From a virus, in IMG/VR virus record IMGVR_UViG_3300044678_003869, positions 1 through 32,435 of that record: 32,435 bases of DNA. The stretch is one strand, 5' to 3'. The translations under genes were made by a program, and so were the position numbers. This document shows positions 26,611-31,706 of the stretch, one piece after another (the stretch's first letter is position 1; each line of letters starts with the position of its first letter). The notes under the pieces are model-generated. The model had not been told where the DNA came from and searched no databases. It saw only the letters and a list, made by a program, of their open reading frames with translations.

Positions 26611-27933
26611 TTACTGTGATAATGAAGCTAATAGCCCGGCAGAGGATGAGCTGGCCTCGGTGTCATTAGTGTGTTCATCTTCGGTGATTGTCAGTGTACT
26701 GTAATCAATTCTCATAACACAGTTACCGAAATTTGGTCCGAATCGGTTTTTCATCGTACCCATTCTTATTACTCCTAACTCTCTATCTTGGTCTTCTTGC
26801 CATATACTAAAAATTGCATCAGCTGTCATACCCAAACCCATACTTTCAGATAGAGTATTTAGACCTGGGTCCGATATTGCATATCCTGAACGATTTAATT
26901 GAGTTGCAGAAATAATAGGACAATTAAATGCATAGCTTAGTGCTCTCAACTGCTCCGTTACATCTTTAACTCTTTCATAGCTATTAGTACCTTGCTTAGA
27001 ATTTAGCAGATTGACATAGTCAACTACAATTGCATCAAACTTAAATCCTTGATGCACGAGCTTTTGGATAAAAGATTTTAAAAATAGAGGTGTAATAGTT
27101 GACGGTGGAAACTCTTTAATAAGAATACATGCCTCAGGTATTGAGCTAGCATGTTCTTTTAGCTGTTGCTGTAGAGTATTGCTTTCTGAACGTAATCTAC
27201 TGAGAGGTATTTTTGTAATGCTTGAACTAAGTCGCTGTGCATAGATCAACTCGGGCATCTCTAACGTTACTAGTAAGACACTTTTTCCTTGATTAGCGAT
27301 ATTTACCGCAATATTTCCAAGAAAAATACTCTTACCGATATTTGTCTCACCAGTAAAAATATAAAGAGAGCGACCTGATTCTAAAAACCCACCTCCAAGT
27401 TTTTCATCTAACCATGCCCAATTTGATGGGATATGTTTTACCTCAGAATTAATACTGTCTATAACTTTATCAACATCTTCAAGTAAATTTAAACCACTTT
27501 CTGTGACAAGAGATATATTACATGCTTGATCAAATTTACTCAATATTTCAGAGGTGTTAACACCGCTTTTGGCAATGTTATCTACTACATCCTCCATTGT
27601 ATGGAAGACGGCTTTTTCTTTCAAAAACCTCTCTGTATTCGAATAAAGCTCATCTTTATTGAAGTTTTTATCAATTTCAGAAAAATCGTTTACTACACGT
27701 TTGAGTGAGTCTTTTAATTCATCAGTAGTGAGGCGTGCAGCTATTTCTGTTTTTGTAGGTACTGTTCCACGCTCCTCAAAAAACTGCTTTATAATTCCAA
27801 AAATAGCTTTAATGTCCTTATTTTTAAAAAATCTCGGATTTAAAAAAGGTGTTACAGATGCTAGATATGTTTCGTCAGTTAACGACTTATATACAATAAT
27901 TTTTTCAAAAAAATCTAAATTAAGATCAGACAT
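26611..27933 (-). CDS. 41: Replicative DNA helicase gp41 (DnaB family)
   Basis: A 440-aa protein (T4 gp41: 475 aa). The N-terminal helical domain (residues 1-150) precedes the RecA-like ATPase with Walker A GETNIGKS (195-202), LLVTLEMPELIYAQR (a DnaB H1a/2 type segment), Walker B-type IVVDYVNLLN (Asp305) and the ISATQLNRSG motif near 340. It unwinds the replication fork ahead of the polymerase and works with the primase at 21204 and the gp59-like loader. It precedes the gp33/gp59-like pair, so loader, SSB and helicase are adjacent. No clear Shine-Dalgarno sequence. Confidence 0.9.
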   Translation of the reverse strand: MSDLNLDFFEKIIVYKSLTDETYLASVTPFLNPRFFKNKDIKAIFGIIKQFFEERGTVPTKTEIAARLTTDELKDSLKRVVNDFSEIDKNFNKDELYSNTERFLKEKAVFHTMEDVVDNIAKSGVNTSEILSKFDQACNISLVTESGLNLLEDVDKVIDSINSEVKHIPSNWAWLDEKLGGGFLESGRSLYIFTGETNIGKSIFLGNIAVNIANQGKSVLLVTLEMPELIYAQRLSSSITKIPLSRLRSESNTLQQQLKEHASSIPEACILIKEFPPSTITPLFLKSFIQKLVHQGFKFDAIVVDYVNLLNSKQGTNSYERVKDVTEQLRALSYAFNCPIISATQLNRSGYAISDPGLNTLSESMGLGMTADAIFSIWQEDQDRELGVIRMGTMKNRFGPNFGNCVMRIDYSTLTITEDEHTNDTEASSSSAGLLASLSQ

Positions 27934-27965: not shown

Positions 27966-28658
27966 TCAATATGAATTATACTCTTTCATGAAAATAGATT
28001 GGCTTTCTACAAAAACTGGGTCATTTATTGATCTAAGTCCAGGAGATTTATGATAAAGTAAAATTGGCCAAACTCCTACTTTCATCTTAAGTTTATTAGC
28101 ATCCAGACAGCTAGCAATATCATAGTGATGGAAGGTAAATTTCTCGTTAAATCTCCAACCTGTTTGTTTTATTTTTTTTGTACTGACAGACAAAAATACG
28201 CCATCTGCAATAGCGACCCTTGATGGTGATACACCAAAATTAGTTATTGATATAGTTTGATCATTGACATAGTGACCTGCAAAACCGCGTAGGTTTGGTC
28301 CAAATCCTCCACACATTATATGCCATAAGGCGGGCTCTTTTATAGAGGGGTTTATACCGCCCGCTACACCGACTATATCAAAATGTTTATGTGCTGTAAT
28401 AATCTTCTGTCTTATTTTACCGTCATCAAGAAAAACATCATCATGTATAAAAACTATAAATTCATAATCATCAATATATTGATCAATAAATTCATTGTAT
28501 CTCTTACTTAAACCTTCCGTATTGTTACAGAAGAAATGAACATAATCAAAAACTGAATACATATCATCACTTTCGGTAAGCTGTGAAATACTTTTATGCA
28601 AAAGTGTTTCAGCGTCATTACTTGCTTTAGTACAGGAAACAAGAGCTATTGTATTCAT
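27966..28658 (-). CDS. Glycosyltransferase-like protein (GT-A fold)
   Basis: A 230-aa protein. The N-terminal MNTIALVSCTKA strand, EFIVFIHDDVFLDDG (residues 67-80, with a DD pair that would bind the metal-nucleotide sugar), FDIVGVAGG and VADGVFLSV-like segments follow the GT-A layout of the StrF-like family 2 relatives. The C-terminal FHHYDIASCLDANKLKMKVGVWPILLYHKS contains the usual His/Asp end of such enzymes. Substrate unknown. Its ATG overlaps the stop of the upstream amidotransferase by 4 bases, so the two are translationally coupled. Possible targets are phage DNA bases or host/phage surface sugars. Confidence 0.65.
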   Translation of the reverse strand: MNTIALVSCTKASNDAETLLHKSISQLTESDDMYSVFDYVHFFCNNTEGLSKRYNEFIDQYIDDYEFIVFIHDDVFLDDGKIRQKIITAHKHFDIVGVAGGINPSIKEPALWHIMCGGFGPNLRGFAGHYVNDQTISITNFGVSPSRVAIADGVFLSVSTKKIKQTGWRFNEKFTFHHYDIASCLDANKLKMKVGVWPILLYHKSPGLRSINDPVFVESQSIFMKEYNSY

Positions 28659-29350
28659 AATACGAAAAATGGTGAATTAGGCTCAAATCCACCCACAGTA
28701 GTAAGCCCCTCATTTGTCATTTGATATATAATACCTTCTTTTAGAGGAATATACTTTTTGTATGGTAGTGATGAAAAATCGTTTGTTAGAATATCGGCAT
28801 AAAGAGTACTGCCCGATCTCGCTAGATAGGTAGTGTTACTCAGAGCATGGTGTATCCATAAACCAAAGGTACCTTCAAGCTGACTTAACACATCTCCTAT
28901 TACTTTCACTTCTTTCTTATTTTTTTTGGAATGCTCATGAAGTAGTGCAGGAATTACAGAACTATCTACCTTATTAAAATCTTTAGGGTTTTTAATTTTT
29001 TTCTTTAAGATTTCGTGATTAGATATAACACCATTATGTGCAACAAACCAGTTTCCACATCTAAAAGGATGTGATGTGTCAATATCAAATTTGCGTTGTG
29101 AGCTTGTAGGCGCTTGAGTATGGCCAAGAAATAGATCCATATCTTTTAACAAAAAAGACATATCATCGTATAATAAAGCGTCATTATTTTTTAATTTTAC
29201 TGTTCCCTCGGCTTTTGCAGTAACAAGAAACTGGCCCTCTGTACTGTGAAAGAGATAAAGACCACCGTAAGCAAAATTACCACGCACTTTACCTAAATCA
29301 TATAATTTCTTATATGTCTGAAGTTTTTTTGATCCAAAAATAGCACAAAT
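28655..29350 (-). CDS. Class II glutamine amidotransferase starting at ATT
   Basis: A 231-aa N-terminal-nucleophile amidotransferase. The motifs follow GlmS-type order: GHTQAPTS (residues 76-83), HPFRCGNWFVAHNGVISNHEIL with the oxyanion HNG (105-107), VDSSVIPALLHEH near 128-140, and LEGTFGLWIHH. An ATG or GTG start is only found at residue 22 (GTG, 29287), which would remove the N-terminus. Reading upstream in the same frame gives (M)CAIFGSKK, the expected start with catalytic Cys2, if translation begins at ATT (29348-29350). A strong GGGAGG lies 9 nt before that ATT, and the frame is closed by TAA further up. It hydrolyses glutamine and passes ammonia to a partner. The gene for the coupled glycosyltransferase follows, and QueC is 1.7 kb away. 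Confidence 0.75.
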   Translation of the reverse strand: MCAIFGSKKLQTYKKLYDLGKVRGNFAYGGLYLFHSTEGQFLVTAKAEGTVKLKNNDALLYDDMSFLLKDMDLFLGHTQAPTSSQRKFDIDTSHPFRCGNWFVAHNGVISNHEILKKKIKNPKDFNKVDSSVIPALLHEHSKKNKKEVKVIGDVLSQLEGTFGLWIHHALSNTTYLARSGSTLYADILTNDFSSLPYKKYIPLKEGIIYQMTNEGLTTVGGFEPNSPFFVL

Positions 29351-29359
29351 ACTCGTTAA

Positions 29360-29365
29360 CCTCCC
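29360..29365 (-). promoter_or_regulatory. Shine-Dalgarno sequence deciding the ATT start
   Basis: GGGAGG on the minus strand, 9 nt before the ATT-TGT-GCT start of the amidotransferase. The GTG at 29287 has no such site in front. Confidence 0.7.
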
Positions 29366-29385
29366 AGGAATATATTAATATATAT

Positions 29386-29393
29386 AATAAATA
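29386..29393 (+). promoter_or_regulatory. Late promoter AATAAATA
   Basis: One base from TATAAATA, 7 nt before the ATG at 29401, in the divergent gap to the amidotransferase gene. Confidence 0.5.
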
Positions 29394-30375: not shown

Positions 30376-31011
30376 ATGAAAAATCAACAAGAGTACAAAG
30401 ACTTATCTCTTCTTTATGAGTCAATTTATGAAGAAGGTATTCTTTCACGTGCTGGCGCAAGAGTGGCAGGCGCAAAGGCAGCAACCGGTCAATATTTTAA
30501 AAATATCGGTAGCACTGTAATGGGCAAAGCAGCTCCTACTGGGGCAGGTCAAGCTGCAGCAGCCGCAAAAACACAATACGCTTTTCAAGCAGCTGCTAAA
30601 AATTTATTAAATGATTTACAAAAACTCGGTCTTCTTCCAAAAGGTCAGATACCTGCACAGGCACAAAATCAAATACAAAATGTACTAAATGATATGGTAC
30701 AAAACTTGCAGCAACAACAGCCAGCATCCCAGCAGCAAAAATCTCAACAACAAACAGCACAACCGGAGCCTATTGCTGCCCCAGAGCCTGCTACAGTTCC
30801 TCAGCAAGAGCCAACACCTAAACTGCCCCAGCAACAACCTGAACCTGCTGCAGCACCTAACCCAAAAAGAAAGAGAACAAAGAAGGCTAAACCTGTAACG
30901 GATGATAAAGGGTTTAAGCAAGTGAGTTCTTCAAAAATTCGAAAAACTTATAGTCAATCAGATGAAGAGCTAGCTCCTATGCCAAGTTCTTTTGAATATT
31001 TTGGTAGCTAA
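30376..31011 (+). CDS. Candidate internal head protein, Gln/Pro/Ala-rich
   Basis: A 211-aa protein starting MKNQQEYKDLSLLYESIYEEG, with the LYE-S site at residues 13-16. Then come an Ala/Gly-rich stretch (ARVAGAKAATGQ), a long Gln-rich and Pro-rich linker (about 105-160), and a basic patch (KRKRTKKAKP) that could contact DNA. It starts 3 bases after the preceding gene and has no late box or Shine-Dalgarno sequence. Its stop codon overlaps that of QueC on the other strand. No known domain. Confidence 0.6.
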   Translation: MKNQQEYKDLSLLYESIYEEGILSRAGARVAGAKAATGQYFKNIGSTVMGKAAPTGAGQAAAAAKTQYAFQAAAKNLLNDLQKLGLLPKGQIPAQAQNQIQNVLNDMVQNLQQQQPASQQQKSQQQTAQPEPIAAPEPATVPQQEPTPKLPQQQPEPAAAPNPKRKRTKKAKPVTDDKGFKQVSSSKIRKTYSQSDEELAPMPSSFEYFGS

Positions 31012-31706
31012 ATATACTTTTCCCAGGGTATATCTTTAGAATAACAAATTGGATCCTTTACTTTTGCGTCAATAAACCCTTTTATGCGCAAAGCACATGC
31101 TGTACACTCACCACAAGCCTTTTCACCGCCTTCATAACAAGTCCAAGTATCAGCATAATCAACACCCAAGCTTAAGCCAAATTTAATTATTTCACCTTTT
31201 GACATTGTTAATAGAGGTGCCTTAATAGCAACTCTATTTCTACGATTCAAAGCTGTTACTTTGTTAATTTCATCCAAGAATTCTGGACTACCATCCCAAT
31301 AACCTGCAACACTATCTGCCTGCGCGGCTCCATGGTAAACTGTGGATGCACCTACAGTTTCAGCATAGGCACATGCAATACTAAGAAGCATCATATTACG
31401 AAAGGGTACGTAGTTTACAGTTTGAGGATCGCCCATTACATCTTTTGCTTTAGCTACATCTATGTCGTTGTTTGTAAGAGAACTGGTTGAAGCGATGTCC
31501 TTAAAAAAGGATATATCAATTAACTTATGGTCATTAACTTTAGCTTTTTGTGCAGTTAATTGAGCAATAGTTAATTCTTTCTTATGCTTTTGTCCATAAA
31601 AAAATGAAAGGGTATATACTTCATCATACATTTGTTTTACATGATAGAGGATAGTGGTACTATCCATTCCACCGCTAAAAGGTACTACAGCCTTTGTTTT
31701 ATTCAT
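31008..31706 (-). CDS. queC: 7-cyano-7-deazaguanine synthase (QueC family)
   Basis: A 232-aa enzyme of the PP-loop ATPase family: SGGMDS at 11-16 binds ATP, FFYGQKHKKEL follows as in bacterial QueC, YVPFRNMMLLSIA near 99-112, and the zinc-binding Cys190, Cys198, Cys201 and Cys204 (TCYEGGEKACGECTAC). QueC makes preQ0 from 7-carboxy-7-deazaguanine. In phages the product feeds either queuosine-type tRNA or 7-deazaguanine modification of phage DNA. The stretch that in E. coli QueC reads YPDCRDEF is YWDGSPEF here, so the substrate pocket may differ. A strong GGAGG lies 6 nt before the ATG. The start overlaps the uvsX stop by 8 bases. Confidence 0.88.
   Translation of the reverse strand: MNKTKAVVPFSGGMDSTTILYHVKQMYDEVYTLSFFYGQKHKKELTIAQLTAQKAKVNDHKLIDISFFKDIASTSSLTNNDIDVAKAKDVMGDPQTVNYVPFRNMMLLSIACAYAETVGASTVYHGAAQADSVAGYWDGSPEFLDEINKVTALNRRNRVAIKAPLLTMSKGEIIKFGLSLGVDYADTWTCYEGGEKACGECTACALRIKGFIDAKVKDPICYSKDIPWEKYI

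Follow-up and report, generated by a model that had tools for sequence, protein, structure and literature searches.

To our knowledge, AUU start codons are so far known from a handful of isolated cellular genes. In Escherichia coli they have been described for infC, in connection with IF3 (La Teana 1993, listed in PMC4611024), and for pcnB (Binns and Masters 2002, cited in PMC13009471). IF3 rejects AUU more than AUG, GUG and UUG, and AUU, AUC and AUA are all subject to this discrimination; the same factor antagonises leaderless mRNAs, the translation of which depends on AUG (PMC4611024). Initiation is known to be aided by a U at position -1 that pairs with A37 of the initiator tRNA (Esposito et al. 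2003, as cited in PMC9841429). With regard to enzymes of the type considered here, phage 9g produces deoxyarchaeosine by means of Gat-QueC and DpdA (PMC6884629).

In the present study, we analysed a glutamine amidotransferase gene (GAT) within a stretch of 32,435 nucleotides of viral DNA (IMG/VR record IMGVR_UViG_3300044678_003869, hereafter the window). Its true start codon is, with very high confidence from sequence comparison, AUU, and its relatives in other phages carry either AUU behind a strong Shine-Dalgarno sequence (SD) or AUG without one.

Results

The features of the locus are compiled in Table 1. On the minus strand, the GAT frame leads from TAA through TAT ATT CCT to the GGG AGG of the SD, continues with TTA ACG AGT, reads ATT TGT GCT ATT TTT GGA at the proposed N-terminus and closes with TGA.

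Table 1. Features of the GAT locus in the window (positions are those of the window).
Feature	Position	Strand	Remarks
Class II glutamine amidotransferase (GAT), read from ATT	28655..29350	-	231 aa/codons; TGA at 28657-28655
Start codon ATT	29348..29350	-	Sequence; ATT and ATG are the sole states in 143 distinct homologues
Catalytic cysteine codon TGT (residue 2)	29345..29347	-	Cys invariant in alignments A1 and A2
Shine-Dalgarno (SD) GGGAGGT	29359..29365	-	GGGAGG at 29365-29360, 9 nt to ATT
T at -1, possible partner of initiator tRNA A37	29351	-	Base counts across ATT and ATG genes
Upstream in-frame TAA, limits possible start	29375..29377	-	Sequence
First canonical start in frame, GTG	29285..29287	-	20 codons past the Cys codon; not conserved
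Glycosyltransferase-like gene	27966..28658	-	PF13712; ATG overlaps GAT stop
gp41-like replicative helicase	26611..27933	-	Query for syntenic relatives
QueC (7-cyano-7-deazaguanine synthase family)	31008..31706	-	PF06508, 217.8 bits
Divergent gene, 323 codons	29401..30372	+	Late-promoter-like AATAAATA at 29386-29393

The GAT protein matches the profiles PF13522 GATase_6 (37.2 bits, cut-off 27) and PF13537 (29.2 bits, cut-off 25) as well as glutaminase domains of GlmS (phmmer), and alignment A1 of the family shows an invariant C2 together with the motifs GH.Q.PTS, HPF, HNG and VD. Judged by these matches, GAT is an ordinary kind of enzyme, namely a class II (N-terminal nucleophile) amidotransferase, for which glutaminase activity is predicted. 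It has GHTQ where GlmS has GHTR. The GAT stop and the ATG of the glycosyltransferase-like gene overlap as ATGA (window 28655-28658), which suggests that translation of the latter gene may be coupled to that of the AUU-started GAT.

QueC is encoded in the window and in most loci. It is a gene separate from GAT in the window, and also in L014, L015 and L018, in which GAT follows directly after QueC. FolE was found in 11 and QueD in 10 of 15 long records, and both are absent from the 32 kb window fragment. Two queries for DpdA gave neither a PF01702 (TGT) nor an R7M-type match in these possibly incomplete records. GAT most likely works with the phage QueC pathway, bringing ammonia into 7-deazaguanine base chemistry, a role which, as no DpdA was found, is likely but unproved.

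A query of viral contigs with the GAT protein returned no close relatives, near relatives were not detected among cultured phages by DNA comparison, and a GAT scan of bacterial genomes likewise gave no relatives. Among cultured phages, the protein had a single match, in Alteromonas phage R7M (21% identity). Relatives were collected via the neighbouring helicase (30 loci, nearly all with a GAT gene), by an alignment-based scan (80 further loci) and by a scan that started from a distant member (another 80). The start codon is ATT in 48 and ATG in 95 of the 143 distinct GAT genes; GTG, TTG, CTG, ATA and ATC starts do not occur in this set. L140, L130, L148, L159 and L163 were considered as additional non-ATG amidotransferases and discarded as short or unrelated frames, with L140 lying inside a gene that by eye is carbamoyltransferase-like.

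The initial annotation had proposed that the amidotransferase starts at ATT in order to have Cys as residue 2. This is borne out by the family, in which Cys2 is invariant and the ATG of other members sits at exactly the same codon; in the window, a start at ATT is required for the cysteine to follow the initiator Met directly. All elements had been placed correctly (the in-frame TAA, the GGGAGG 9 nt from the start, ATT and the Cys codon), and the claim that ATG, GTG and TTG are absent between this TAA and the Cys codon is correct. The same holds for the observation that the GTG at 29287 misses the cysteine. This GTG is moreover not conserved among relatives and was consequently rejected as a start, as were a second ATT (29371) and an ACG (29356) in the same frame, which are neither conserved nor correctly spaced. 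In L009 and similar relatives, the next canonical codon lies 366 nt downstream of the GAT start.

The suspicion that ATT reflects a sequencing or assembly error, or that the true start lies elsewhere (at the upstream ACG or ATT or the downstream GTG), arises naturally from the rarity of ATT starts and from the choice of GTG 29287 by gene callers, but it is hardly tenable: dozens of independent contigs from more than 20 metagenomes carry the identical ATT, by which a base error is refuted, in-frame stops stand as near as 6 nt upstream of ATT in L089 and L090, and a start at GTG would delete the invariant cysteine. ATG in close relatives had been regarded as evidence against an ATT start. Both codons do occur, the nearest relatives and one further group having ATT and others ATG, some of the latter being close (e.g. 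L004, 55% identical). The ATT start nevertheless stands, and the ATG relatives do not refute it, since the ATG genes also lack a strong SD.

SD and start codon were found to switch together. An SD of at least 6 nt precedes 47 of the 48 ATT genes (47 of all 143 distinct homologues, from more than 20 metagenome data sets) and none of the 95 ATG genes. In a first set of 84 genes, with the SD scored in the ATT rows as a match to AAGGAGGTGA, all 44 ATT genes have an SD of 6-8 nt placed 5-9 nt before the codon, and the 40 ATG genes have one of 0-5 nt. The pairing energy of the SD in the ATT leaders has a median of -11.6 kcal/mol (range -16.9 to -10.2), compared with -1.1 for other phage genes. The one exception, L346, combines ATT with a weaker purine-rich leader, and its near-identical ATG sister L349 differs in that very stretch. 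A scan of viral contigs for GGAGG-N3-11-ATH-TGY yielded 50 real GATs, all with ATT, the few matches with ATA, ATC or other codons being short or unrelated frames. Conversely, SD plus ATG followed by Cys-(Gly/Ala)-Ile-Phe-Gly-(Ser/Ala) had no match in 2.9 million viral contigs, a pattern the ATT form of which fits 42 of the 44 ATT genes. Judged from these sequences, GAT has two start designs that exclude one another, an AUG without SD at or near the mRNA 5' end and an AUU with SD, and the AUU start is directed by the SD and would hence be weak or conditional.

On the gene tree of the 84 rows, the codon state changed at least 9 times, at least 7 of which are forced by supported branches, and all seven independent pairs are concordant for SD and codon (p = 0.016). 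A quick tree of 142 rows gave 12 changes, at least 6 of them forced, and concordance in five of six supported independent pairs (p = 0.06). GATs of different clades (L038, L040, L042, L045, L054, L060, L136) share the identical or nearly identical leader CAAACAGGAGAGGAGGGTAACGCT-ATT, and the 5' module consisting of leader SD and ATT has evidently been spread in part by recombination. As a consequence of this recombination, independent mutational origins are fewer than switches.

The two groups also differ in the position of their promoters. In ATG GATs, the end of a TATAAT box most frequently lies exactly 6 or 9 nt upstream of the start, whereas in ATT GATs it lies 18-20 nt upstream. Assuming an ordinary distance from the -10 box to the transcription start, leaders of about 0-3 nt (ATG) versus 12-14 nt (ATT) are predicted from this spacing, and most ATG GAT mRNAs are accordingly predicted to be leaderless. 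The transition can be seen in L053 and L046, which share the promoter TATAATATTAATG: one of them continues as an SD leader to ATT, the other has ATG two bases later.

Strong SDs are otherwise foreign to these genomes. Among 475 conserved genes from the window and five long related contigs (G001-G004, G009), not one has an SD of at least 6 nt and 334 are without any SD. In 104 of the 475 genes, the end of a late-promoter-like TAAATA lies 5-6 nt upstream of the start codon, and in 25 that of a TATAAT lies 6 nt upstream, a spacing from which widespread leaderless or near-leaderless mRNAs, including GTG-started ones, are predicted. The GAT site is the sole strong SD before any start codon of ORFs of at least 60 codons in the window, and likewise in G007. 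In a comparison of 533 conserved genes, no gene besides GAT had an SD-preceded non-canonical codon at the start of homology.

Within the ATT leaders, the SD, the T at -1 and the ATT are constant in 44 genes with 29 different SD-ATT spacers. Of the 48 ATT genes, 46 have T at -1, compared with 48 of the 95 ATG genes and 193 of 385 other ATG genes of the same phages. Codon 4 can serve as a control for the choice of the start codon: it encodes Ile in every ATT gene and is ATA in 34 and ATT in 10 of the 44, whereas the start is always ATT. Codon 4 has, however, changed just three times on the tree among the ATT rows, so that after correction for shared ancestry the strict use of ATT versus ATC is only weakly above chance. 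The comparison is thus suggestive of selection on ATT itself. While ATA-TGY would create an out-of-frame ATG, ATC-TGY would not, yet it was never found.

Discussion

From our point of view, the data as a whole are probably best explained by an AUU that is placed by the SD, gives low or conditional output and alternates with a leaderless or near-leaderless AUG. The unusually strong SD, 7-9 nt away, would place fMet-tRNA on AUU, which would depend on this SD to work at all, and the U at -1 probably assists by bringing A37 of the initiator tRNA into the pairing as well. Once fMet has been removed, the catalytic cysteine would stand at the N-terminus, the same as in the ATG homologues. Structurally, the SD-AUU design would correspond to an inserted leader of 10-12 nt that brings the SD. 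Since AUU is a poor start codon and is discriminated against, only SD-pairing ribosomes would use the site, and we infer that GAT output is low or conditional. The initial annotation had likewise suggested that AUU may keep output low or make it responsive to IF3.

It is plausible that this output is controlled by IF3, or that it depends on ribosomes whose anti-SD is free, for instance because bS21 is lacking or exchanged. Both start designs could respond to IF3, as this factor rejects AUU and antagonises leaderless mRNAs. An IF3 gene was not found in the 15 phage records, and a search for a phage tRNA that reads AUU as initiator gave no general candidate, the only initiator-like tRNA-Met (anticodon CAT) being that of G003. 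This tRNA-Met (L192:14018-14094) has a T1 x T72 mismatch like the bacterial initiator and is without the three anticodon-stem G-C pairs.

One could alternatively imagine plain attenuation, namely that AUG plus SD would be too strong and AUU sets a fixed low output without any regulation, as has been proposed for E. coli pcnB. The pairing of a strong SD with a weak codon, and of a weak or absent SD with ATG, fits such a constant output, and in Staphylococcus aureus the output from AUU or AUA starts behind extended SDs is about 10% of that from AUG (PMC13009471). A simpler route to low output would, however, be the loss of the SD, as in nearly all other genes of these phages, and attenuation leaves the gain of the genome's only strong SD unexplained. 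We therefore regard it as possible, though on the unlikely side.

Another explanation, which we consider unlikely, involves specialised ribosomes: a Bacteroidota-like host would hide its anti-SD with bS21, and SD plus AUU would limit GAT to ribosomes that lack bS21 or carry a phage bS21. In its favour, the phage genes are SD-less, a bS21 match was found in 8 of 9 ATT-type long records (among 15 searched, window excluded; one just below the cut-off), and 26 ATT loci have a bS21 gene downstream, about 3 kb from the GAT start. In the phage bS21 of G001, the only one aligned, Gln64 takes the position of Tyr54 of Flavobacterium johnsoniae, the residue that holds the anti-SD. Furthermore, an obvious SD is confined to rpsU in F. 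johnsoniae, a gene favoured by bS21-less ribosomes (PMC9976891), and a strong SD precedes Flavobacterium rpsU in all 80 loci fetched. On the other hand, all these 80 rpsU genes start with ATG and their SD is stronger (-19.8 kcal/mol versus the GAT median of -11.6 in the same calculation); the GAT median also misses the threshold of -13 kcal/mol named for the extended SD of rpsU (PMC9976891). In addition, a Bacteroidota host is indicated by indirect signs only (SD-less genes, phage bS21). Twelve ATT loci, among them the window, extend far enough downstream but have no bS21 there, while three ATG loci do have one. An adjacent bS21 gene was also considered as the cause of ATT and dropped, as it follows the clade and not the codon. 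The TATAAT-like boxes found here are presumably not of the Bacteroidota promoter type.

Several observations were made alongside. Divergent phage bS21 genes are co-directional with GAT and the helicase (G001:84906-85037, G003:80554-80682, G009:37060-37176 and others), and in the bS21 of G001 a Trp stands two residues after the Gln at the Tyr54 site. In infC of Flavobacterium relatives (L293-L295, L297, L301), there is no canonical start in the expected place, and a conserved ATAGCA suggests a putative AUA start without SD.

If the SD-AUU site escaped ordinary initiation and could be read only once the anti-SD is free, e.g. after a phage bS21 has replaced that of the host, GAT would represent one gene set aside for a second ribosome class, with all other genes being read from leaderless, near-leaderless or SD-less mRNAs. 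We put this forward as a doubtful, tentative extension; if true, the repeated swaps between leaderless AUG and SD-AUU would mean that evolution toggles one gene between two initiation pathways.

An improbable possibility is that ATT replaces ATG to avoid an ambiguous start, as AUGUG behind an SD may start out of frame at GUG. AUGUG is indeed present in every ATG GAT, and in E. coli the ambiguity of AUGUG depends on SD spacing (PMC9841429). By those same data, however, the spacing of 7-9 nt in the ATT leaders already favours the 5' codon; ATT-TGY itself creates an overlapping UUG, and ATC, which would escape the overlap, was never seen. Lastly, it is very improbable that ATT is fixed by an element on the opposite strand such as the promoter of the divergent gene, whose start is at a distance of 43-53 nt in most ATT loci, as that gene has a late-promoter-like box of its own (Table 1), a divergent neighbour 35-54 nt away is also found in many ATG loci, and L119 combines SD and ATT with no divergent neighbour by the same scan.

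The preferred reading, an AUU placed by the SD, has a number of implications. Since cysteine is obligatory at residue 2, the GAT family itself reports which start codon it uses, and its roughly 140 phage genes show that AUU has been kept and exchanged with AUG, almost always alongside a strong SD. As such, the family constitutes a natural experiment on the trade-off between SD, start codon and leader length, as well as a testable case of SD-dependent translation where the genome otherwise manages without SDs. In practical terms, gene callers that accept only ATG, GTG and TTG would mis-start or drop such genes.

Compared with described systems, GAT shows the traits of conserved AUU genes, namely a conserved AUU, no canonical start for an essential N-terminus and a strong SD. 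With regard to the enzyme, the closest cases are the phages with Gat-QueC (Enterobacteria phage 9g, Alteromonas phage R7M), and the N-terminal part of the fused R7M protein is homologous to GAT; here, GAT and QueC are separate genes and DpdA of the TGT or R7M type was not found. Streptomyces sigR also uses a non-canonical start, for IF3-dependent repression (PMC5472188), but its codon is GTC and it is a bacterial regulator. The rpsU gene of F. johnsoniae, which is autoregulated by bS21, resembles GAT in that its strong SD stands alone in a genome otherwise without SDs (PMC9976891); it has AUG and a longer SD, whereas GAT is a phage gene with AUU for which control by bS21 is putative. In S. aureus, cvfC1 (AUU) and ccpN (AUA) combine a conserved non-canonical start with an extended SD, like GAT; unlike the GAT phages, S. 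aureus uses SDs generally, and alternation with a leaderless AUG is not among the features reported in the accessible part of PMC13009471. Finally, E. coli infC and pcnB share with GAT a conserved AUU start, the use of which is weak (in GAT, by prediction), that of infC being repressed by IF3. These are single cellular genes, whereas GAT is a metabolic gene of phages that alternates between AUU and AUG, with AUU tied to the gain of an SD.
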